IMG/VR virus record: IMGVR_UViG_3300012984_000363
Coordinates: 1-24,927 of that record
Source of the DNA: a virus
Direction: 5' to 3' (one strand)
Length of the DNA stretch: 24,927 nucleotides
Shown one piece after another: positions 514 to 21,127 of the stretch. Made by a program: the position numbers and the translations under genes. Below the pieces are notes generated by a model that was not told the origin of the DNA, did not search any database, and saw nothing but the letters and a program-made list of their open reading frames with translations. Each line of letters starts with the position of its first letter. The first letter of the stretch is position 1.

Positions 514-2208
514 TCAAACCGCATTGAAATAGCCGAGCAGAGCCTGAAGGGACGGATTGGCTGCCCCGGGATAGTTCAGCGCCACGACGTTTCTAAGTTG
601 AGCCTTTAGCGTCTGGTAACGCAGGGCGCTCAATGCCGGGGCCCCACTTGAATCTGCTCTAAGCTGCGTCCAGAAGTCGAGCACATTGGCGTCACTCGGG
701 TTAGAGATGCCTGGGAAGTTGCCGCTCAGCAGCCCGCGAAATGCATACCCAATCGCCGCCTGTTGAGCACTTGGCAATGCCGCCGCTCCGCTAGCCTCCG
801 CAGTGAGCTGGGCAAAGAAGCTCAGCACCTCGCCATCACTCGGGTTGGCGACTAGGAACGAGTTCGCTGCGAGCGCGCGCCCAAGCATGGCGCGCATACT
901 GAGATACTGATCTGTGAGCAGCCTGATTAGTTCAGCCACCAGCACCGGATCCCAACGTAGGTACCCGCCCTCTGCCAAGTGGGTCCCGTCGATAGACAGC
1001 GACAGCGATGGATTCATGTCGGCTTGCGTGAGCACTTCGCCGACGTTGGCCAAGCGGTGCGCGAACGTGGGCCACGTAGCTTTTAGGTCCGCGTTGATTA
1101 TTTGGCGCGCAGCCTCGAATCTTGCATCCCCAAAAACGGCGGACAATGTGCACGCAATTACAAGGAATCCGTCCGCCATTCCGCGTCTGCACACCGACTT
1201 GTATGCAGGTAGGACGATTGCAGCTACTTGACTCGGCGTAAGCGTGCCCAGCCCAGCGGACACATCGTTAATCGAAATGCCCTGGCATACGAGAATGTTT
1301 TTTGGCCGAGCAGGGTCGTAGCGAGGGAGAGCATCGGAGAGGTAAAACGCTGGGATTTGATCCGGATTCGTCGTTCCCGTTCCAGCCGCCGCGACGTTGA
1401 GTGCGCGTGGCGGATTAGCCAACCCGTTCAGCGCAGTCTGCCAGGCTGGCCGCCATCCCGAGCCGACTGAATCGCCAAGAATTGTGACCGTCGACGCCGC
1501 AATCGGTGGATTGCCGACGGGCTTACTCAACAGGTACGCTTGGAGATCGCCTTGGTCGGCTGAGGACAAGGCCTGCGAATAAACCACGTATTGACTTACA
1601 GCTAAGTGCGAGTTCGCGTAGCCGGTCCACCTCCCAATCTGAAATGCGCTCAGTGTTCCCGCGGTGGGCGCGGTGGGGATCACCAGCGTTTGCGATACGC
1701 CGTTGATCGTAAGCCGAATCTCGAATTGTGTTGGCGTGCACGTGAGAAGTAGCGTGCATTCGGTGACGTTGTGTCCAGGCTGAATGCCAGTCAGCCCAGG
1801 AATAACCGCAGTGTATGCAGGAGACTGCAAGACGAAAGCCCCGCCCTGCATGTACATCGCAAGGTCGGTGCCTGCGGTATGCGTTGCATAGAACAGCGGC
1901 ATGGTCTGTTGTCCGCCACGTGATTGCCATGCGAGCGCGATCGTGCAGTTGTTCGCCGGCACCGGACTCGCCGGTGCTGGGAACACCATGAAGTTCGGAT
2001 CGCCCGAGTGAAAGTCGAGCGCAGCAGTCTCGCGCCATGGCCTCGCGTTTCCGCTCGCTGTGATATTCCCCGACAACGGCGCGGGCTGAGCGATCTGCGC
2101 AACGCGCCCATAAGGCACCGTCGCCACCGTCGTGCCGGCATCGGAGTACGCGGTTTGCCCTCCGTCGAGCCAGAGCGCTAGCCCAGCTAGCGCAGCGGGC
2201 GTGCTCAC
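514..2208 (-). CDS. Tail receptor-interaction protein: LamG-like domain + SGNH/GDSL esterase + C-terminal repeat module
   Basis: GTG start at 2208 (product ~564 aa) chosen because it overlaps the upstream TGA as GTGA, has a GGGGCAGG ribosome-binding site 7 nt before, and begins STPAALAGLALWLDGG, typical of LamG/ConA-like phage proteins. An in-frame ATG at 2265 would add 19 residues. About 1-230: LamG-like beta-sandwich (LALWLDGG, then hydrophobic strands). About 240-430: SGNH hydrolase with block I ILGDSVGSG (Ser247), block II Gly276, block III GISIND (Asn314) and block V DGTH (Asp407/His410), so all four SGNH signatures are present. This should be a carbohydrate O-deacetylase/esterase on the tail, trimming a capsular or LPS glycan. 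About 434-564 is a repeat module also found at the N-terminus of the upstream gene product. Substrate unknown. Confidence 0.85.
   Translation of the reverse strand: MSTPAALAGLALWLDGGQTAYSDAGTTVATVPYGRVAQIAQPAPLSGNITASGNARPWRETAALDFHSGDPNFMVFPAPASPVPANNCTIALAWQSRGGQQTMPLFYATHTAGTDLAMYMQGGAFVLQSPAYTAVIPGLTGIQPGHNVTECTLLLTCTPTQFEIRLTINGVSQTLVIPTAPTAGTLSAFQIGRWTGYANSHLAVSQYVVYSQALSSADQGDLQAYLLSKPVGNPPIAASTVTILGDSVGSGWRPAWQTALNGLANPPRALNVAAAGTGTTNPDQIPAFYLSDALPRYDPARPKNILVCQGISINDVSAGLGTLTPSQVAAIVLPAYKSVCRRGMADGFLVIACTLSAVFGDARFEAARQIINADLKATWPTFAHRLANVGEVLTQADMNPSLSLSIDGTHLAEGGYLRWDPVLVAELIRLLTDQYLSMRAMLGRALAANSFLVANPSDGEVLSFFAQLTAEASGAAALPSAQQAAIGYAFRGLLSGNFPGISNPSDANVLDFWTQLRADSSGAPALSALRYQTLKAQLRNVVALNYPGAANPSLQALLGYFNAV
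526..909 (-). repeat. Direct repeat copy B (128-codon module, C-terminus of the esterase gene)
   Basis: Encodes 128 residues that align without gaps to the module at 3171-3554. By hand count about 96 of 128 residues are identical. At DNA level the copies contain exact matches of 44 bp (755-798 with 3400-3443) and 29 bp (818-846 with 3463-3491), and a 44-bp match with one mismatch (543-586 with 3188-3231), all at a constant offset of 2645 bp. The match is in codon frame. Confidence 0.92.
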
Positions 2209-3572
2209 AGCGATACCTGCCCCAAATACTTCGAGGTGACAGCGGGTCGGATTGCTCCCGCCCAATCCGGCGCATTTGGTGTGTACACAACCGCAAACAC
2301 ACTGGCATTAGTCGGGGCTGATGCTCCGGGTGAGTTGTATATTCTAGTGTTTGTAGCGGTGTCGTTTCCTGCGTTACCCGTCTGCGTAACGGCACCAATC
2401 TTGGTTGTGTCGCTCGCGTTGTTCGAGCGCTTTATCTCCAGGATGTTCCAGTTGAGTGGATTGACAGTCACGCTCACGCCAGCAACGTTGGCATTCTTAT
2501 GGTAGAAACCCGTGGACGGCGCGGCACTTAGACAGCCGACGCGATTCCCAAACGCGGAATCGCCGTTGCCAAGGATGCACGCATCGCCCACCGTTGCTAA
2601 ATAGCGGAAGACGGCAAACACATAATAGGGAGTTGTGCCAGGCGCGGGGAGATTGATGCCATTCGTGATGAACAGGTCATCAATGCCATCACCAATCAGC
2701 TCGACGTTCCCATTAATTCCGATACCGATGATTGGTTGAGTGGTGCTGCTCGCGGTCGTCGCGTGCTTGCCATTGCCACTCTGATCCGTGAGCGCCGAAC
2801 ATGTCGCATCCCAATTGTTGCTCTGCACAGCGTTGCCAGCAGCCCAGACGAGGGAGGCACCGGTCCCAGCGCCGGTCAGCGCTACAGGCGTAGCTGGCGT
2901 AGGCTGGACACCTGTCATCGCCCACGTCGAGCCGCCGTCGAACGAGATGTCGAACGTCGCCGAGCCGATGGCTACCGTGCCAACGCTGGTGGCCTTTGTA
3001 CGAATGGGCACCGGTCGACCGACAACCGCTCCGGTAAGTGTCACCACGGTTGTCGAGGTATTTGTAGTGCCAGGGAGTAGTGTGCCGCCGTAGGTCAGAC
3101 CGAGATCGGACTGAAGCACTTGGTAAGCGCCAGGGAACAGCGACGCGAAGTTGATGGTGGTATAGGCTGCGAAATACCCGAGCAAATCCTGAAGGGACGG
3201 ATTTGCTGCCCCGGGATAGTTCAGCGCCACGCGAGACAGTAGCGCTTGCTTAAGCACCTGGTATCGCGCAGTCGGCAGCGCGGCCGCGCCGACTGCATCG
3301 GACCCGAGCTGAGCCCAAAAATCCAATACCTGTGCGTCGTTCGGGTTGGACACACCGGCATAGTTGCCGCTCAGGATTCCTCGGAACGCATACCCAACAG
3401 CCGCCTGTTGAGCACTTGGCAATGCCGCCGCTCCGCTAGCCTCGGAGCTCAGCTGATTGAAAAAGCTCAGCACCTCGCCATCACTCGGGTTCGCAACCAA
3501 GAACGAGTTGGCCGCGAGCGCAGCACGGAACAGCGCCCGCATGCCGATGTACTGCGCCGCGGAGATGGTCAC
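2205..3572 (-). CDS. Tail protein: N-terminal repeat module + LamG/ConA-like lectin domain (455 aa)
   Basis: GTG start at 3572, overlapping the TGA of the upstream gene as GTGA. Residues 7-134 are the Ala/Leu-rich module shared with the C-terminus of the next gene product. A Thr/Gly/Val-rich linker region follows (about 140-235; it contains DISFDGGSTW, a possible small beta domain). From about 250 there is a ConA/LamG-like domain marked by DQSGNGKHA, then GDGIDDLF and a YYVFAVFR strand; this pattern is common in phage tail proteins that bind glycans. No catalytic motif was seen. The protein probably sits at the distal tail with the esterase protein, one as a binding partner or alternative adhesin. 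Start, extent and lectin-type fold are fairly sure; the exact role is inferred. Confidence 0.8.
   Translation of the reverse strand: MTISAAQYIGMRALFRAALAANSFLVANPSDGEVLSFFNQLSSEASGAAALPSAQQAAVGYAFRGILSGNYAGVSNPNDAQVLDFWAQLGSDAVGAAALPTARYQVLKQALLSRVALNYPGAANPSLQDLLGYFAAYTTINFASLFPGAYQVLQSDLGLTYGGTLLPGTTNTSTTVVTLTGAVVGRPVPIRTKATSVGTVAIGSATFDISFDGGSTWAMTGVQPTPATPVALTGAGTGASLVWAAGNAVQSNNWDATCSALTDQSGNGKHATTASSTTQPIIGIGINGNVELIGDGIDDLFITNGINLPAPGTTPYYVFAVFRYLATVGDACILGNGDSAFGNRVGCLSAAPSTGFYHKNANVAGVSVTVNPLNWNILEIKRSNNASDTTKIGAVTQTGNAGNDTATNTRIYNSPGASAPTNASVFAVVYTPNAPDWAGAIRPAVTSKYLGQVSL
3171..3554 (-). repeat. Direct repeat copy A (128-codon module, N-terminus of the LamG-like gene)
   Basis: Partner of the copy at 526-909 in the same orientation, offset by 2645 bp. 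The encoded module consists of two full 48-residue units (residues 23-70 and 71-118 of the 455-aa product) that each start N-x-x-x-x-x-NP-[SN]-D and contain GAAALP, plus a truncated third unit starting NYPGAANPS. Confidence 0.92.
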
Positions 3573-3877
3573 CAGTACACCGACACCTTTTGCGCCGTGC
3601 TCGTGTTTTTGAGCCCGATCGCTTGGATATCGAATCGCTGTCCAACGAAAACCACGTCCAGCGTCACGTCAACGCCATCGAGCCCGGTAGCGACGAGCGT
3701 GCCGACCGCGCCGCAGATGATCCAGCGGCACGGCCGCCCCTCGGCGGGCGCTCCGAGACCTGGGATGTTGAGCTTTAGCGGGTCGTTCGCAAGAATATCG
3801 TAGTTTGCTGGCGCAGCCGTCCACGCTGTGCGGTACGCCGTCGATGATTGCTGCAGTTCGTTCTGTGCGGTTGCCAT
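3569..3877 (-). CDS. Small virion-associated protein of unknown function (102 aa)
   Basis: ATG start at 3877, eight nt after a GGAGGG ribosome-binding site that overlaps the end of the upstream ejection-protein gene. The TGA overlaps the next gene as GTGA. The N-terminus is polar and Gln/Ala-rich (MATAQNELQQSS). The rest alternates hydrophobic and polar residues in a way that suggests a small beta domain (IICGAVGTLVATGLDGVDV...VVFVGQRFDIQAIGL) and ends KVSVYW. Small beta proteins immediately upstream of tail-fibre or lectin genes often join the fibre to the tail, which is a reasonable guess here. No family was recognised and no catalytic motif is visible. Confidence 0.65.
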   Translation of the reverse strand: MATAQNELQQSSTAYRTAWTAAPANYDILANDPLKLNIPGLGAPAEGRPCRWIICGAVGTLVATGLDGVDVTLDVVFVGQRFDIQAIGLKNTSTAQKVSVYW

Positions 3878-3882
3878 GCTCG

Positions 3883-6800
3883 TTACCCTCCAAGGGTTTC
3901 CTGCGCCCCCGACTGTCGGGAGACTCCAATCTTGTTGAGTGATGCCGTCGTGCGGCCTGCCTTTGGCTGCGTGTCAACCTTGGCTTTCGCCGCCTGCATC
4001 GCGCCTACACGATCGATGAAAGCGCCCACCAGCGTCGGCTCTCCAGCGCCGTGCAGGTCCAAAAACAGGTCAAGCTGCAACCGATCGTTGAACGGCATGC
4101 GCTTGCCGGACTGGTCGAGCTCGCGGATTTTCTCCAGCGCCTTGAGCTGAACCTCGGCATAGAGCTCCGGGTACACCGCCTTCAGCGCGTCAACCTGCGC
4201 ATGGGTGACCGTGCCGCGGCGCAAGTCGTCGATGACGCTCAGCGGGTTAGCGACGGCAGACCACTTTTGCGCGAACTCGCGAATCTGCAGGTCGCTAGGG
4301 CTGAACTTGCGCGACGGCTGGAACATGGTCGGCGCAGCCGTCCCTGCCGGCAGCTGCGACTCCAGGTACTGCGCGCCGCGAGTTGCCGTGATGGTTGCCG
4401 CCTGAGTGAGTCGCGGCATCGTCTCTGCGCCTCCACCCATGGCCGACTGCATCGATGCACGCACGCCTGCGCCCATGTCGCGGTTCGCGTCTGCGAGTTC
4501 GGCAATGCGCTTCTCGTAGGCTGCGCGCAGGTCCTTGGACTTGCCCTGAAACGCCTCCACCGCAGCTGGCGTCACGAGGCGCTTGAGTGGTACCGCACTC
4601 GCGGTCCGGTCGAGTCCAGCGGCAGCGGCGGACGCGCGCGCCGTCGACTCTCGGAAGAATGCGCCGAGTCCAGACTCAATCTTGCCGTCCAGGTTATTCG
4701 CGAGCTTGTCGGCGAGCACGGCGAGCACGGCGCTCGAATGCTCGCGAATCGTCTTGTGCGCGAATGCTGAAGCAACCGCTCCGATCGGACCACCACCGAG
4801 CACACCAGCTGCAGCGCCCACGCCATAGTCGCTCGGTGACACGACTCGGTTGCCAAGGTTCTGCAGCTCGGCTGCGCCAGCAATGTCGGAGGCCAACAAC
4901 AGGTGGCGGAATTGCGTCTTGATTTGCTTGTACGCCTGCGCTGCTTTCTGGTCGAAGAATGTGGCTGCCTTGTCCGACGCTGCCTCGATCGATTCCTCGA
5001 GGATGCCGCGCGCACGCTCCAAATCTTTCAGGTTTGGCGGCGCCCCCTGCTGCGTGAGGTTCACACCGCGCTTGGCCTGATAAATCTGGTCGTCGAGCCC
5101 TTGGCGCAACCGCGTCAGGTCGGCAACGCTGACAGGTGTCTTGCCGGTCTTCGGCTGAACTAGCTTGCGCCCGTTGCCCTGTGGCACCGCCTCGAAACGC
5201 TGCGCCGCCATCTCGCGAATGTCGTTCACCAGCTGGCGCACCGGTGCCGCCTGAGCCGCAACAGACGATAGCGGGTGGCTTTCGAGCGGCGCGACTACCT
5301 CTTGCTCGATGCGGTCGGCGATGGCGTCGGCCTGTGGCGCAATCTCGGGGTGCGCCTCAAAAACCTTGTCCGTCTTTTCGCGGAAAGCGCCGAGCTTCGC
5401 CCCCGCTTCCTCCTTGGCTTTCAGCACGCGTGCGGAGAGTTCCTCTTGCGAGTCGAGCGCGCGGAACACTGGGGTTCCGTCGTCGAGCGTCACACCGCGC
5501 ACGGTGCGCGCCATGTCGTGCATGGTCTGTTCGGCTTGCTGCGCGTTGCGTCCGAGCTTTTTCAGCGTCGAGCCGCGCGCGCCCAAAGCCTTCGCAGTGC
5601 GCTCGTCGGCAAAGTCACGCAGGCCATTGGAGAAACGGCTCGGCGCAGCTCCGGCGCCTTCGGCAGCGGCATCAGTGACCAGGGCGCCCGCTTCAGGCGC
5701 TGCGGCCTCTCCGATGCTCACGGCGTCACGCCAGCTTTTCGCTGGCGCATTCGAGAGCGACACGTCTTGCGTAGTTTTGCTAATTACGTTGCCCTCTTCG
5801 TCGTAACGCACCACATCTGCGGCGATCGTCTTGTCACCGCGCTCAGCGGCGAGCGTCATTCGATGGCGCCCGTCCGCAACGGTTGCCGTTTCTGGGGAGC
5901 CGTCAAACTCGGGATAGATTTCGATTCGCGGTTTACCAAGCCGGTCAGCGCCATGCGGACCTTTCGCGGCATCGCTGCGCAGATATTTGAACGACTCATC
6001 ACGCATTGACGAACGATCGAAAGCACCCACGTTCACGTCGATAGGAACTGCCTGCGCAGGCGGTTCACCGAGACCACTCGCCACGTCCAGCGGCGCCTCG
6101 GCCTGCGCAGGCAACCGCGGTGAGTCGAGCGGCGTTGCCCCACGCGAACCGCGCCGCAGTAGCGCGCCGCCGCCGTGAGCGGCTAGCGAAACGCCACCGC
6201 CGAGCAGCGCACCCCAACCCATGGCCGCAATCAGCTTTTCGCCAGTCAGCGGAATGTTGTGGAGGTAGGCCTCCTCGCCAGCCTGCGCCTGGCCGTACGC
6301 GGCGCCCTCCAGTGCGCCTGTCGCCAGAGCACCCGACGCGCGCGCGGCAAGGCCCTCTCCGAGCGCTTTGGCGGCACCGGCGCCCAATGCCTTGGCACCG
6401 CCGGCAAGCGCTCCGCCGCCTGCCAGGGAGCCCGCCACGTTGCCAGCGAACGCGGTCGCCGGATTCAGCTCTGCTCGAGCGCGGGCGTTCTCGCCGTATT
6501 CCCGGCCGTAAGCCTCCGCGTTCCGGTCGCTGGTCGCCCCGCCCCAAAGTGCCGCGATGTTCTCGACAGTCTTTCGCCCGCTGATGTCCTTGAGCGGGTC
6601 GGCGTCGCCCCACAGGGCGGCGTTCGCTCGGAGCGGCAACGCGATCGGAGCCTGCGCGGCGTCAATGGCGCCAGCGGCTGCGGACTCCAAGCCCGTCTTG
6701 ATTTGGGCGCCCGTTGTTTGCGCTTTCTTGTCGCGCTCGTGCTGCGCGTACTCCTCGGCAGTGATCGCAAAGCGGTCGCCCTCGGCAATCTTCGCGGCGG

Positions 6801-6891
6801 CTGCAGAGGGGTCTGTTTTGAAGACATGCCCGTCCGCGTCGCGCAGGTACGCCTTCCCGTCCTTGACGAACGTGGGCGCCTTGTCACTCAT
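3883..6891 (-). CDS. Large ejection/internal virion protein with embedded ParB/Srx-like motif (~1002 aa)
   Basis: Start set at the ATG at 6891 (MSDKAPTFVKDGK), which overlaps the end of the upstream gene as ATGAGTGA; an ATG seven codons earlier (6912) is less natural. Visible parts: a small N-terminal region with KDGKAYLRDADGHVF; a long Gly/Ala-rich hydrophobic stretch at about 146-248 and a second at about 690-712, as expected for a protein that inserts into or lines a channel; a compact region at about 285-380 holding DGRHRMTLAAERG (340-352), a pattern seen in ParB and sulfiredoxin-like folds; long helical, coiled-coil-prone segments at about 425-680; and a helical C-terminus (ANPLSVIDDL... 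AVYPELYAEV) of a type seen in large phage DNA-ejection proteins. It is likely packaged in the head and delivered with DNA. Confidence 0.78.
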   Translation of the reverse strand: MSDKAPTFVKDGKAYLRDADGHVFKTDPSAAAAKIAEGDRFAITAEEYAQHERDKKAQTTGAQIKTGLESAAAGAIDAAQAPIALPLRANAALWGDADPLKDISGRKTVENIAALWGGATSDRNAEAYGREYGENARARAELNPATAFAGNVAGSLAGGGALAGGAKALGAGAAKALGEGLAARASGALATGALEGAAYGQAQAGEEAYLHNIPLTGEKLIAAMGWGALLGGGVSLAAHGGGALLRRGSRGATPLDSPRLPAQAEAPLDVASGLGEPPAQAVPIDVNVGAFDRSSMRDESFKYLRSDAAKGPHGADRLGKPRIEIYPEFDGSPETATVADGRHRMTLAAERGDKTIAADVVRYDEEGNVISKTTQDVSLSNAPAKSWRDAVSIGEAAAPEAGALVTDAAAEGAGAAPSRFSNGLRDFADERTAKALGARGSTLKKLGRNAQQAEQTMHDMARTVRGVTLDDGTPVFRALDSQEELSARVLKAKEEAGAKLGAFREKTDKVFEAHPEIAPQADAIADRIEQEVVAPLESHPLSSVAAQAAPVRQLVNDIREMAAQRFEAVPQGNGRKLVQPKTGKTPVSVADLTRLRQGLDDQIYQAKRGVNLTQQGAPPNLKDLERARGILEESIEAASDKAATFFDQKAAQAYKQIKTQFRHLLLASDIAGAAELQNLGNRVVSPSDYGVGAAAGVLGGGPIGAVASAFAHKTIREHSSAVLAVLADKLANNLDGKIESGLGAFFRESTARASAAAAGLDRTASAVPLKRLVTPAAVEAFQGKSKDLRAAYEKRIAELADANRDMGAGVRASMQSAMGGGAETMPRLTQAATITATRGAQYLESQLPAGTAAPTMFQPSRKFSPSDLQIREFAQKWSAVANPLSVIDDLRRGTVTHAQVDALKAVYPELYAEVQLKALEKIRELDQSGKRMPFNDRLQLDLFLDLHGAGEPTLVGAFIDRVGAMQAAKAKVDTQPKAGRTTASLNKIGVSRQSGAQETLGG

Positions 6892-8716
6892 CGTCAGGCT
6901 CCTCTGGAGCAAATGCCTTGTCGGTCTGCGCCTTGGTCACAGCCCCGCGGCGCTCGGCGTTGTGCTTGCCAACAATGTCTGCGCCGTAGCCAGCATCGCG
7001 CTCGTGAGCGGCAGCGTCCTGCTCGCCCTGCAGCAGATTCAGGCCTCCGAGCAAGTCAGAGTCGTAGGTGCCACTGACCATGTTGTCGAGCCGCTTGAAC
7101 TCGTCCTCAGTGACCGCCGTACCGCTGCGCATCTTGAGCGTATTGGAGAGCACGTCAGTTTTGACTTGGCGGAAGTCGCGACCCTCTTGCGAGGTGAGCG
7201 CATTCGGCACCCATCCCGTTGCGCCGTGGCCAGCAACGGACGGCTCTTTGCCCTTCGGCATGACCCAGCGCCCCGTCTTTTGGTCCCACACCGCGCCGAT
7301 TTTTCCGGCGAGATTCTTGAGTCCGGTGCGTGCTGCGGCCTCGGCCTCCTTTGCCTTGCCGTAGTCGATTTGGAACTTGCGCTCTGCTTTGGCTGAAATC
7401 GGGTTCTGCGGTCCGAGGCCCTTTCGAAGCGCCATCTCCTGATCCAGAGTGAGCGGCTTGCTACCGCTGCCGCCACCGCTCGCACGGTGATACTTCTCTT
7501 CGCTCGTCGTCGTTGTCTTGCCCGCGGCGAGGTCGGCGCGCGCCTGCTCGTTCAGTAATTGCTGCTGCTGAAACTGCGCGGCCAATACTTGCGCGTTCGC
7601 GGCGATGTCCTTGCTGCGAGCCTGTGCTCCGAAACGGAGCGTCTCGGTTTCGGCGACCTTGTTCAGCGACTGCTGCAGGGCCAACTTCGCCATATCGATA
7701 TCACCGTGGTAATACTCAGTCAGGCGAGCGAGCGCGTTCTTGCGGTCACCGCGGCCGGCGTCGAACGCCTCTTGCTGCGCAGCCATCTCGAGCTGAATCT
7801 TTTTTTGCGCCGCCTGGAACGCCCAGTTTTCGGTGTGGCCGATCGTTGCGCCAAACGCACCTAGACCTTGCCCGATGATGCTCAGCATCCCCGAGAATGC
7901 GCCGCCCGGTGTTGACCAGTAGCGATTCGGGTCAGGCTTCGCTGATTCGGTGTACTCAGCCAAGTCTTGCTGCAGTCGTGCGTCCTGCTGCTGAAACGCC
8001 ATTTGCTTGCGCTGAATCTCGGCCTTGTTTCGAGCCGCCTCTTGCTGTGCCGCGAGGTTCTTTGCCGCTGCGTCCGCGAGTTGCGCATCTGCTGTTTCCT
8101 TGTCGCTGGCCGCCTTGGCCATCTGCGCGTCGAGCACCATGCCGGCAGCAGCAAGTCGATCGTGAGCTGCCGCGGTGTCGTATGCAGGCCCCCGCTCAGT
8201 CACGACTTTGTTAGAGTCGGGAGAGAAGCCCGCGGGCGTGAATGGCTGCGGTGCGGCGCCTGGGAGGTGACCAGTGCGTAGCGCTTCCCGCATGCGCGCA
8301 TCGGACGCGGCCATAGCCTCGGCATTCGGGTCTGACGACGCGGGTGGAGGTTGAGCCCCTTCGGTTCCCTGTGGGCCAGGCGTGGGAGGCTCAGGCGTCG
8401 GCACAGGGGCCGAAGGGGTCGGTGCTGCAGCCGGCGCTGCTGCAGGCGGCGCATCGGTCGCCACCGGGCCAAGTTTGCCGCCGACTCGGTTTTCCCAACC
8501 AGGCTCTCCTTTGGTGAACTTGTCCCAAAGGCTGCCGCCTGCGCTGGGCTGCTCCGCGCTGTTGTCCGCGATACGCTGGTCGCCAATGCCAAGGCGCTCG
8601 CGGTGCTCGTCTGCGATCTCGGGTAGCGCCATCAGCGGCGGACGCCCATCATCGAAATGCAGCAAGCCGGCGCCCGGAAATTCGGGCACGTCGGTCACGT
8701 CGACAATCTTGGCCAT
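6884..8716 (-). CDS. Ejection/internal virion protein, coiled-coil rich (610 aa)
   Basis: ATG start at 8716, overlapping the upstream TGA as TGATG. The N-terminus (to about 80) contains VPEFPGAGLLHFDDGRPP and an Asn/Glu-rich region. About 85-130 is a Pro/Ala linker (APAAAPTPSAPVPTPEPPTP). About 180-260 is strongly coiled-coil (Gln, Ala and Lys rich; AQQEAARNKAEIQRKQ). A short glycine-rich hydrophobic segment (FSGMLSIIGQGLGAFGATIG) follows, then a second helical stretch to about 400 and a C-terminal region with LRKGLGPQNP and GTAVTEDEFKRLDNM. Size, composition and place between two other ejection-type genes fit a DNA-ejection or internal core protein. No enzyme motif was recognised. The general role is probable; the specific role is not known. 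Confidence 0.7.
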   Translation of the reverse strand: MAKIVDVTDVPEFPGAGLLHFDDGRPPLMALPEIADEHRERLGIGDQRIADNSAEQPSAGGSLWDKFTKGEPGWENRVGGKLGPVATDAPPAAAPAAAPTPSAPVPTPEPPTPGPQGTEGAQPPPASSDPNAEAMAASDARMREALRTGHLPGAAPQPFTPAGFSPDSNKVVTERGPAYDTAAAHDRLAAAGMVLDAQMAKAASDKETADAQLADAAAKNLAAQQEAARNKAEIQRKQMAFQQQDARLQQDLAEYTESAKPDPNRYWSTPGGAFSGMLSIIGQGLGAFGATIGHTENWAFQAAQKKIQLEMAAQQEAFDAGRGDRKNALARLTEYYHGDIDMAKLALQQSLNKVAETETLRFGAQARSKDIAANAQVLAAQFQQQQLLNEQARADLAAGKTTTTSEEKYHRASGGGSGSKPLTLDQEMALRKGLGPQNPISAKAERKFQIDYGKAKEAEAAARTGLKNLAGKIGAVWDQKTGRWVMPKGKEPSVAGHGATGWVPNALTSQEGRDFRQVKTDVLSNTLKMRSGTAVTEDEFKRLDNMVSGTYDSDLLGGLNLLQGEQDAAAHERDAGYGADIVGKHNAERRGAVTKAQTDKAFAPEEPDDE

Positions 8717-11472
8717 CAGAGCCCACCCGTAGAGGTGGCGAACGACGTGGCGCGCTCGTCGCCTTTCTTGCGCTTTAGCGACGCGGGCAGCAACTGCTCG
8801 AGCTCGTCAATGCGCGCACCCAAAGCGTCGATATGGTTCTGTTGCGCGTGGTTTTGCGCGAGCCCGGTAAGTGCTGCGCGCGGACCATCAACGAACAGCT
8901 TACCGGTGCGCGCATCCTTGCCGACCATGCCGCGGGTGAGCGGGTGCGCCGCAAGGTCCTGCGCCATCGGCCCTGTTTGCATGCCGGGTTTAGCGCCCGG
9001 CGCTTCCGGGTCCTTGTACTCGTAGGTAGAGCCGGGCGCGTTGCGGGCGGAGTCAGCGAGCAGAGCATCGCCTTCGCTCAGGATGGGATGCGACTCGTCG
9101 CGAGCGAACCGGCGCTCTGTTCGTGCGTCGGCGCCTTGGGGCGCTTCCGGCAAGTACGTTTCGCCCACCCAATCGCCGCCATCTTTCGGCCCGGCTGAGT
9201 ACTGCGATTGCGTGGAAAACGTCGGATGCCCGTGCTGCTTGAAGCGATCGGTAAAGTGCCCGCTGTCAGCGCCTCGTCCTTCACCCGCTAGGTATGCGCC
9301 GCGGTAGTCGTAATGGCTGTCCGGATGGTCCAAGTCTCGGACATTGTTTGTCTTGAGCCACTGACGGAATCCCGCTTCCTGTTCCGGCTTCAGCCTCGTG
9401 ACCTCGCCCCGATCGTTCTGCTCGAGACCATATCGGCGCTCGACGGCATCCGCGCTCATTGCTTCGCGCTCGAAGGGCAGACCGAGCTTATCCGCTAGCT
9501 GCGCACCGTAGCTCTTGACCTGCTTTGGGTTGCTAGCGATGCCGCCAGCGCCGTACTTCTGCGCGAGCGCGTTTAGCTCACCGAAGGCATCGCGATCGAG
9601 CTCACGGCGACCAGCGCCGTAGTCTCCGCGCAGGTATTCGCCATTCGGCCCGAGCCCGCCGCCGGCAGCAGTGCGTGGCTCGGGGTCAAGCGGGCGAATA
9701 TTCGTCTTACTGCGAACGTCGCTGAACACCTTGCCAAGCGCCTTGCCAGCAATACCGCCAAGGACTGAGCCGGCAATCGCACCGATCGGTCCGCCAATGG
9801 CGCCACCCGCAACGCCGCCCACCGCCTTACCTGCTCCGGAACCGATAGCCTCGTTGCGCGCGTCTTTCTTCTGCGCATCGAGCTCGCCCTGGGTCGGCCC
9901 CATCTTGACCGGGGTTGCGCCGAAGACAGAGCCGTTCGATTGGCTCGGAAGCGGCTTCACATCGTTGCCGTTCATCGAACCGCCAAGCGGGGTGATGTTG
10001 GTTTTCGTGCGCTCGTCAGAGAGCGCCCCGATCACGGTGCCGCCTGCGTTGAGCGCGGCCGCGGTGTAAGCTTGCTGCCGATTTGCGTCGGCGATTGCCG
10101 CCGCCTGCGCGAAGCCCTTTTCGGCCGCATAGGTCTGATTCGCGCTCGCGTATTCATTCTCACGCCCTGCGAGCGCCGAGGCGTTGACGTTGAGCTGCTG
10201 AGTCTGTGAGCCCATCTCGGCGCCCATGCCTTGCTGCAGGGCTACGGCTTGCCGGTCTGCCCAAGCCTGGGAAGCGGCGTCATTGAGCTGCGTACCCTTG
10301 AGCGCGGTGTCAGTCTGGTACTGCGCGCCAGCAAGCCCAAGCTGTCCGTAGCTCTGGTCACCGCCGACGATTTGGCTCGACAGGCCGCCGGCCGAGTTCA
10401 ATGCGCTGAGCTGCTGCGCTCCAATCTGGTTCGACAATCCGCCGGCCGCATTGAGCGCGCTCAGCTGCTGCGCGTCGCGTTGGTTGGTAAGGCCGCCGGC
10501 CGCATTGAGCGCGTTGAGCCGCTGATTTTGGAACGCGGTGTATTCGTTTGCGCGGAGCTCGGCCGCTTGCGAATTGGCCTGCTGCTGCGTCAAAGCGTTC
10601 TGTCCAATTGCCTGGCGCAGTGCCGCTTGGCTGCCACCCATCCCGCGGCCAGAGCGCGCCAGGGCAAGCGCGTTTTGGGTATTGGCGTCGGTTGCCTGGG
10701 TGAGCTGTGCTTGAGCTGCGCTCGGGCCCTGAGGCCCATTCGCGAATTGGTTTAGCGCGTCGATTTGTGCGCCCTGTTGCGCGGTGCCGTTCGCCGCGAA
10801 CTGGTTCAAGGCGCTCAGCTGCTGCCCTTGCTGCGCGGTGCCATTCGCCGCGAACTGGTTCAGCAGGTCGTACGAGCTGGTTTGCAGACCTCGCGACTGC
10901 TGTGCATTCGTGAGCCCCTGGCCGTACTGGCTCAAATCACCAGCGTAGACACCCAGCCCGCGAGACTGCGCGGCAGCTGCGTTTGCCGCGGCTTGGTTTG
11001 CGACGCCGCTGAAAGCCGCCGAGTATTTGTCGCCCGTTGCCTGTGCGTTGCCAAGCATCGCTTGGGTCGCGGCATTGTTGCCGGTGCCAAGCCCGAAGTC
11101 GTACTTCCGCTGTGCGGCGGCCTGGTCCTGCGAAAGGTTTGGGTGGATCGCGTCGGGGTCGTCGTGCTGGCCGGCGTACTCACCAGGCAACCAGTTGCCG
11201 CTCGCGACGTTCGCTGCCGCGGTCCCTGGAGTTTTCCAGTTTTGGAATTGCAGTGAAGGAGTAGGCGCATTAGCTCCGGCGATGGTCGCGTTGCGCGCCT
11301 CTCGCGCCGCTTGTTGCTCTGGCGTTTCAATTGGAGCCTGCGCCGGAACGGCTGCAGCAGCGGGCGCGGCTACCGCTGGCGCAGCCAACTGAACCGGCTT
11401 TGGCTTTGGCTTCCAAGCCGCCGCTGCCGCAGTCTGCGGGCTAGATTGGCTGTAGTCATAATCCGTAGGCAT
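8716..11472 (-). CDS. Large virion protein with S74-like chaperone elements and 18-aa repeats (918 aa)
   Basis: ATG start at 11472 with AAGGAG six nt upstream, overlapping the upstream TAA as TAATG. About 15-60: Ala/Pro/Lys/Gln-rich tail. About 204-245 and 322-368: two arrays of 18-residue repeats. 485-493: SDERTKTNI. 545-583: glycine zipper. 584-592: SDVRSKTNI. About 716-775: a recognisable phage motif region (YDYRGAYLAG ... GHFTDRFKQHGHPTFS ... WVGETYLP). About 815-895: YEYKDPEAPGA, GPMAQDLAAHP and a final helix with IDALGARIDELEQLL. The SDxRxKxNI start and the MAQ/helix end are hallmarks of peptidase S74 intramolecular chaperone domains, which trimerise fibres and may cleave themselves before the Ser. 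Here the start is doubled and a large insert divides it from the end. Likely an ejection or tail-associated structural protein. Confidence 0.75.
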   Translation of the reverse strand: MPTDYDYSQSSPQTAAAAAWKPKPKPVQLAAPAVAAPAAAAVPAQAPIETPEQQAAREARNATIAGANAPTPSLQFQNWKTPGTAAANVASGNWLPGEYAGQHDDPDAIHPNLSQDQAAAQRKYDFGLGTGNNAATQAMLGNAQATGDKYSAAFSGVANQAAANAAAAQSRGLGVYAGDLSQYGQGLTNAQQSRGLQTSSYDLLNQFAANGTAQQGQQLSALNQFAANGTAQQGAQIDALNQFANGPQGPSAAQAQLTQATDANTQNALALARSGRGMGGSQAALRQAIGQNALTQQQANSQAAELRANEYTAFQNQRLNALNAAGGLTNQRDAQQLSALNAAGGLSNQIGAQQLSALNSAGGLSSQIVGGDQSYGQLGLAGAQYQTDTALKGTQLNDAASQAWADRQAVALQQGMGAEMGSQTQQLNVNASALAGRENEYASANQTYAAEKGFAQAAAIADANRQQAYTAAALNAGGTVIGALSDERTKTNITPLGGSMNGNDVKPLPSQSNGSVFGATPVKMGPTQGELDAQKKDARNEAIGSGAGKAVGGVAGGAIGGPIGAIAGSVLGGIAGKALGKVFSDVRSKTNIRPLDPEPRTAAGGGLGPNGEYLRGDYGAGRRELDRDAFGELNALAQKYGAGGIASNPKQVKSYGAQLADKLGLPFEREAMSADAVERRYGLEQNDRGEVTRLKPEQEAGFRQWLKTNNVRDLDHPDSHYDYRGAYLAGEGRGADSGHFTDRFKQHGHPTFSTQSQYSAGPKDGGDWVGETYLPEAPQGADARTERRFARDESHPILSEGDALLADSARNAPGSTYEYKDPEAPGAKPGMQTGPMAQDLAAHPLTRGMVGKDARTGKLFVDGPRAALTGLAQNHAQQNHIDALGARIDELEQLLPASLKRKKGDERATSFATSTGGL
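8788..9030 (-). other. C-terminal S74-like chaperone end (domain within the 918-aa protein)
   Basis: Residues about 815-895: YEYKDPEAPGA, then GPMAQDLAAHP, then GKLFVDGPRAALTGLAQ and a heptad-like helix. The order matches the second half of S74-type domains (aromatic strand, Gly-x-x-Ala-Gln turn, terminal helix that forms the trimer). Confidence 0.6.
9697..9723 (-). other. Second S74-type SDxRxKxNI site (residues 584-592 of the 918-aa protein)
   Basis: SDVRSKTNI. In S74 chaperone domains self-cleavage occurs just before the Ser of this motif. It follows directly after a glycine zipper (residues 545-583). Confidence 0.6.
9994..10020 (-). other. First S74-type SDxRxKxNI site (residues 485-493 of the 918-aa protein)
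   Basis: SDERTKTNI, preceded by IGAL. Two such sites 99 residues apart in one protein is unusual, because normally there is one per S74 domain. Confidence 0.6.
10369..10509 (-). repeat. Tandem 54-bp (18-residue) repeats, second array
   Basis: About 2.6 units encoding residues 322-368 (LNAAGGLSNQIGAQQLSA type). On the plus strand the GCCGGCC core recurs every 54 bp. The units share QQLSALN with the array at 10738-10863, suggesting one ancestral unit. Confidence 0.85.
10738..10863 (-). repeat. Tandem 54-bp (18-residue) repeats, first array
   Basis: About 2.3 units encoding residues 204-245 of the 918-aa protein, unit LNQFAANGTAQQGQQLSA. Near-identical at DNA level (plus-strand CGGTGCCGTTCGCCGCGAAC and CGGTGCCATTCGCCGCGAAC 54 bp apart). 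Confidence 0.85.
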
Positions 11473-20718: not shown

Positions 20719-20747
20719 ATAATGTCCCGTGACAAAGAATGTCCTAG

Positions 20748-20757
20748 GTAGTACTAC
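20748..20757. promoter_or_regulatory. Palindrome GTAGTACTAC just upstream of groES
   Basis: A perfect 10-bp palindrome, seven nt before the groES ATG, overlapping the candidate rightward -10 element. It may be an operator or a chance occurrence. Confidence 0.3.
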
Positions 20758-20764
20758 TAGAGCC

Positions 20765-21127
20765 ATGTCGAACATTCGCCCCATGCAAGACAACGTGTTG
20801 ATTCAGTTCTTGCCGCCGCCGAAGCTGGCCCCCGGCGGAATCATTTTCCTGCCAGACACCGCCAAGCCTGAGCAGACGCTGCGGGCCGAGGTGGTCGCCG
20901 TGGGTCCAGGCTATTACCGGGACAGCGGGCACGGTCGGTTCATCCCGACGACGCTGAAGCCCGGTGACGTGGTGCTCGTCGAGCGCCAGGCGGGCCAGGA
21001 TTACTCCCTCGACGTGAGCGCGCCGCGACAGAACGCGAAGGGCGCGGATTGGGGCGACACCAAAACCGGCTATCGCATGGTGCGCGAGGAAGAGGTGTTG
21101 GCGGTTGTGGAGGAAGCGAATGACTGA
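20765..21127 (+). CDS. groES: Phage-encoded GroES-like co-chaperonin (120 aa)
   Basis: Start chosen at the ATG at 20765 because SNIRPMQDNVLIQ matches the conserved GroES N-terminus (N-I-R-P-L-x-D-x-V). An in-frame GTG at 20729 would add 12 unrelated residues. GroES hallmarks in order: NIRPMQDNV (3-11); mobile loop at about 16-34 with GGIIF (24-28), whose hydrophobic tripeptide is the GroEL contact; EVVAVGPG (42-49); roof loop ~50-60; LKPGDVVLV (64-72); and YRMVREEEVLAVVE (103-116). GroES caps the GroEL chamber during protein folding. At 120 residues it is longer than the usual ~97; about 15 extra residues (roughly 80-100) sit before the last strands. No clear ribosome-binding site was seen. 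It heads the terminase operon. Phage co-chaperonins of this kind (T4 gp31) assist capsid folding. Confidence 0.9.
   Translation: MSNIRPMQDNVLIQFLPPPKLAPGGIIFLPDTAKPEQTLRAEVVAVGPGYYRDSGHGRFIPTTLKPGDVVLVERQAGQDYSLDVSAPRQNAKGADWGDTKTGYRMVREEEVLAVVEEAND

Follow-up and report, generated by a model that had tools for sequence, protein, structure and literature searches.

The two adjacent genes at positions 514 to 3572 of the DNA analysed here most plausibly form a mosaic receptor-binding locus of a short-tailed phage, in which two anchors are combined with a laterally exchanged cassette, a reading that we hold with moderate confidence. The window, by which we mean the whole stretch of DNA that was analysed, is a complete, linear virus record of 24,927 bp and is probably a genome fragment. 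Since a Pfam profile search returned matches to a portal of the P22/SU10 type and to an SU10-type adaptor, we take the window phage to be short-tailed, P22/SU10-like and uncultured. A GroES/Cpn10 co-chaperonin (20729-21127, plus strand; Pfam E 1e-13), of which a homologue is found in L044, adjoins the portal gene.

All features of the locus lie on the minus strand. The gene gp1 (2205-3572; 455 aa, GTG start) encodes a module, M1 (3162-3572), at its N-terminus, followed by a presumed receptor-binding region (2208-3152) that is 41-47% identical to its counterparts in three related phages, G002, G005 and G010. The gene gp2 (514-2208; 564 aa) encodes an N-terminal region, a region resembling SGNH hydrolases (928-1491) and, at the C-terminus, the second copy of the module, M2 (517-927). 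It also begins with GTG, at 2208, and this start codon overlaps the stop codon of gp1 as GTGA. Directly upstream of gp1 is a conserved gene for a 102-aa protein (3569-3877), and directly downstream of gp2 is a gene for a small membrane-like protein, a presumed holin (260-499). The same strand also encodes a large virion protein (3883-6912), 741 to 1009 aa long in different relatives, with an optional insert at its middle that contains DGRHR and is present in the window and in L057. Another virion protein on this strand (8716-11472) has 54-nt units at 10370-10531 and 10741-10848 that encode 18-aa tandem repeats; it also matches the Peptidase_S74 chaperone of endosialidase (E 9e-7) and contains two SDxRxKTNI motifs.

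The duplication of the module, proposed in the first-pass annotation, was borne out by direct comparison. Positions 526-909 and 3171-3554 align without gaps, with 96 of 128 residues (75%) and 281 of 384 nucleotides (73%) identical. At a constant offset of 2645 bp and in frame, the copies share exact blocks of 44 bp (755-798) and 29 bp (818-846); further exact blocks cover 560-586 (27 bp) and 543-558 (16 bp). Compared at the same offset, the sequences beside the repeats (400-526 and 909-1010) are 26-29% identical, which is background. BLASTP aligned gp1 with gp2 at E 2e-58 and an independent repeat search also recovered the pair at a spacing of 2645, and chance is therefore excluded. The length of 128 residues first given for the module had to be revised, as the homology extends to the gp1 start codon and brings each copy to about 137 aa.

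Each copy is built from three tandem internal repeats of ~48 aa (z 4 to 18 against shuffles), with two helices per repeat. In M1 these repeats lie at about 3423-3569, 3279-3422 and 3162-3278, and in M2 at about 778-924, 634-777 and 517-633. An AlphaFold model of the module, made from a four-sequence alignment, contains six helices (pLDDT 87, pTM 0.83), and the predicted fold is one of three helical hairpins. Nothing credible for the module came from Pfam, from a sequence search of PDB or from Foldseek comparisons with viral and PDB structures, and none of the profile, sequence and fold searches matched it to known anchor folds or chaperone domains. Across annotated phages, viral contigs and bacterial genomes, the module was found outside the window only in the relative G013, giving two module-bearing phages and four copies in all; since the contigs were scanned by short peptide patterns, absence from those scans is weak evidence. 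A weak match in G031 was set aside as chance, being 24 residues long and on the strand opposite the G031 capsid gene.

The domain labels originally given to the two proteins fared less well. LamG, which had been assigned to both, has no Pfam support, and neither gp1 nor its homologues matched any Pfam profile, LamG or concanavalin-like ones included; gp1 residues 141-449 are common to relatives that do not carry the module. The esterase label of gp2 held in part. Its profile match was weak and fell below the cut-off (GDSL_2, E 0.016). The four SGNH motif blocks (GDS245, G276, N314/D315 and D407xxH410) are, however, all invariant in three homologues, and this conservation supports a region that is SGNH hydrolase-like. 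A PDB search gave a weak match of the same region to an SGNH hydrolase (E 0.14). Since the AlphaFold model of full-length gp2 reached a pLDDT of 38 and was too poor for use, we claim no domain fold from it.

Close relatives were gathered by terminase and capsid searches, and 40 relative records were scanned for the module. The one carrier among them, G013 (37.9 kb), has an MCP 92% identical to that of the window phage. At the same locus, behind the 102-aa gene, it encodes two adjacent proteins of 359 aa and 485 aa, both with the module at the N-terminus. Its N-terminal position on two distinct binding proteins of G013 makes the module look like a common attachment part, much as the first-pass annotation had supposed when it described a shared docking part. 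The G013 record closes with a low-complexity repeat of the HAVGHAGVHAV type (L055:19219-19875).

Other relatives carry a different short N-terminus (RRPEHRRAMYIGGGG...) at this position. It precedes the gp1 binding region in G002, G005 and G010, and in G003 and L066 it precedes an SGNH domain related to that in the second G013 protein. Each of the four possible combinations of two anchor types with two binding-domain families is accordingly seen at a single locus, behind the same upstream gene, so that in related phages a conserved N-terminal domain is followed by differing C-terminal domains. The swapping of two anchor types over the same two binding-domain families suggests that the module is an anchor or assembly domain for binding proteins. 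The 102-aa upstream protein has two sequence types, each of which goes with one anchor type, and this would agree with a role as docking partner of the anchor without demonstrating it. More distant relatives (L065:801-3081 and L069:5995-7643) have a homologue of the 102-aa gene, one small ORF and then a spike that by eye resembles a beta-helix, which makes a third kind of binding protein for the locus. A distant kinship of the module with this spike's N-terminus (MLTDQQALALQYWMRGSLG...), also suspected by eye, was rejected, the spike ORFs not being among the profile matches.

The earlier view that a swappable receptor-binding cassette lies between the repeats agrees with our comparisons, since the edges of this segment (929 and about 3153) abut the modules and its pieces occur module-free elsewhere. 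Positions 929-2660 form a mobile segment with 77.7% nucleotide identity over 1737 bp to L071 (84 kb), and sharing with L071 is limited to this segment (80 of its 84 kb compared). Since L071 encodes Baseplate_J, Mu Gp48, a lambda-family portal, capsid protein E and an integrase, we infer that it is a temperate contractile-tailed phage. The homology to L071 stops at 929, within 2 bp of the beginning of M2 at 927, and nucleotide similarity to G002 and G005 starts at 3153, where M1 ends. Residues 1-427 of gp2 are found without the module in two unrelated contigs, L071 (85% amino acid identity) and L072 (62%); L072 joins the gp2 body to another N-terminus and ends where M2 would begin. The L071 homologue of gp2 follows, with a similar stop/start overlap, a protein that shows 68% identity to gp1 in its C-terminal part, and the module is on neither protein. 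A binding region is in this way common to the window phage and an unrelated phage. Since most of the cassette is present module-free in an unrelated contractile-tailed phage, the locus looks like a mosaic that arose from part swapping, and the comparative data show exchange between phages rather than toggling within one phage.

The modules themselves have exchanged sequence, and to this extent the recombination between repeats proposed earlier appears to have occurred. Within the 44-bp block (3400-3443 in M1, 755-798 in M2; module positions 131-174) M1 and M2 are 95.5% identical, against 45-59% for the other module pairs, and a run of 26 agreeing polymorphic sites was reached in none of 10,000 shuffles of sites or codons. 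For these two reasons the block is best read as a probable gene-conversion tract that formed within the window lineage; the alternative would be that both tracts were acquired from a third phage. Outside the tract, M1 and M2 share 67.6% of their nucleotides, and their identities to the second G013 copy are 67.6-67.8%. Because these three copies are equidistant, as in a star, the duplication probably predates the split of the window phage and G013, and on the same equal distances we reject a recent duplication of M1 and M2. Between M1 and M2, dN was 0.23 and dS 1.12, which indicates purifying selection on the modules. Since M2 has also changed no faster than M1, it is not visibly decaying.

In the history that we favour, the module would be a lineage-specific anchor or assembly domain of three helical hairpins that attaches binding proteins to the virion, and the parts exchanged between phages would be the C-terminal half of gp1 and all of gp2 except the module. 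The ancestor was probably G013-like, with two adjacent binding proteins that each began with a module of their own. A laterally acquired cassette, consisting of the gp1 C-terminus and the gp2 body, would have been placed between the two modules. Because the cassette filled this place and the old binding domain of the second protein was lost, the second module would have become fused in frame to the gp2 C-terminus, and the modules would have gone on recombining, as the short conversion tract suggests. The stop codon, ribosome site and start codon that follow gp2 (TTGAAAGGA..CATGACC) are similar to those behind the second G013 binding protein, which fits a replacement of the cassette in front of a stranded M2. 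The informative sites for the quartet of M1, M2 and G013 copies A and B divide 17:15:13; no orthology of M1 and M2 with A and B is seen, and a history in which the second anchor stayed in place is for that reason not proven.

It is possible, though we think it the lesser chance, that M2 is a relic with no present role, once the N-terminal anchor of a second binding protein that no longer exists and left behind on the gp2 C-terminus by the replacement. The start of M2 matches the point of the start codon in the other copies, gp2 homologues end naturally close to where M2 begins, and the L071 homologue is without M2. Since no obvious N-terminal anchor is present in that homologue and the module is missing as well, gp2 may have another way of attaching, which would make M2 superfluous. 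M2 is nevertheless intact and in frame and changes no faster than M1, although this has little force if the fusion is recent. Internal initiation that would yield a free module from gp2 was also considered: residues 438 and 441 are ATGs in frame, but no clear ribosome site was seen. We are more doubtful that the module serves oligomerisation or folding, joining gp1 and gp2 through M1-M2 contact rather than binding the virion. Chaperone domains occur at tail-fibre C-termini, and the module, made of helical-hairpin repeats, is on both of two coupled genes with one copy C-terminal. However, both G013 copies are N-terminal, which is the usual place of an anchor, relatives replace the module as a unit with another N-terminus, and the searches described above found no likeness to known chaperone domains.

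The gp2-M2 fusion is known from one assembled contig, and a chimeric assembly at or near the repeat would make it unreal. Repeats can mislead assemblers, this is a single metagenome contig and no second contig carries the fusion; even so, we regard such an artefact as improbable, as the gp2/M2 junction (929) lies outside the 44-bp shared block, the frame is open through M2 to its stop and is then followed by a downstream context like that of G013, and the independently assembled G013 also has two modules. We give very little credence to the deletion-type switch raised in the first-pass annotation, in which recombination between direct repeats removes the cassette to alter host binding: the repeats are in frame, share an exact block and do exchange sequence, and coordinate arithmetic agrees that a crossover leaves a 137-aa ORF, but the copies are only 73% identical overall in nucleotides, the loss would be irreversible and its product without a binding domain, no deleted form or module-only protein occurs at the locus among relatives, and the module spacing in G013 (1080 bp, against 2645 in the window) and the content between the modules differ. 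The repeats are direct, and the ORFs of the window, looked over short of a dedicated search, showed no recombinase.

Exchange of binding domains on a retained anchor is established for phage tail fibres and tailspikes, such as those of T7/K1F and the RBPs of Klebsiella phages, in which a conserved N-terminal anchor is combined with an exchanged C-terminal receptor-binding domain (PMC6872550, PMC10408124) and the known architecture-determining domains are N-terminal (PMC6872550). As in those systems, the attachment part is kept and the binding part is exchanged across genera and tail types, in a locus that is variable amid syntenic structural genes. Unlike them, the window locus has one C-terminal copy and a three-hairpin helical module without a sequence or fold match. 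Branched complexes of several RBPs (G7C gp66/gp63.1, CBA120 TSP1-4) use shared N-terminal assembly domains, and G7C gp63.1 is an O-antigen deacetylase (PMC6872550, PMC8825819, PMC11414711); repeated N-terminal domains recombine, and spike genes are lost or truncated in laboratory phages (PMC11414711). Our locus resembles these in having two or more binding proteins with shared repeated domains that recombine. It differs in that their T4 gp10-like XD/TD domains are not seen here (no Pfam or PHROG match to XD domains in gp1 or gp2, and a module model that is all-helical with no PDB fold match), and docking in the window phage is putative. Det7, a myovirus reported to carry a spike of podoviral type (Walter et al. 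2008, cited in PMC10408124), is a similar case of a binding domain common to short-tailed and contractile-tailed phages; here, by contrast, the shared part is a two-gene segment, the gp1 C-terminus and gp2, cut at the module edge.

By analogy with these systems, the locus would work as known anchor-swapping loci do; its helical module is new, and one copy of it is C-terminal. Anchor swapping is well known in phages; in this case the cassette edges coincide with duplicated anchor-like modules, and the locus adds conversion-like exchange between modules and a cassette common to a contractile-tailed and a short-tailed phage. The odd point, seen in one contig only, is an unusual one: the anchor is N-terminal in gp1 and in both G013 proteins, and in gp2 it is at the C-terminal, 'wrong' end. 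We consider it rather unlikely, but conceivable, that the virion holds gp2 through the C-terminal M2 and gp1 through the N-terminal M1, the two proteins being mounted in opposite directions on a single docking site, with the duplicated anchors acting as homology arms for dropping in whole cassettes. If the C-terminal anchor does work, the rule of N-terminal docking would need qualification.
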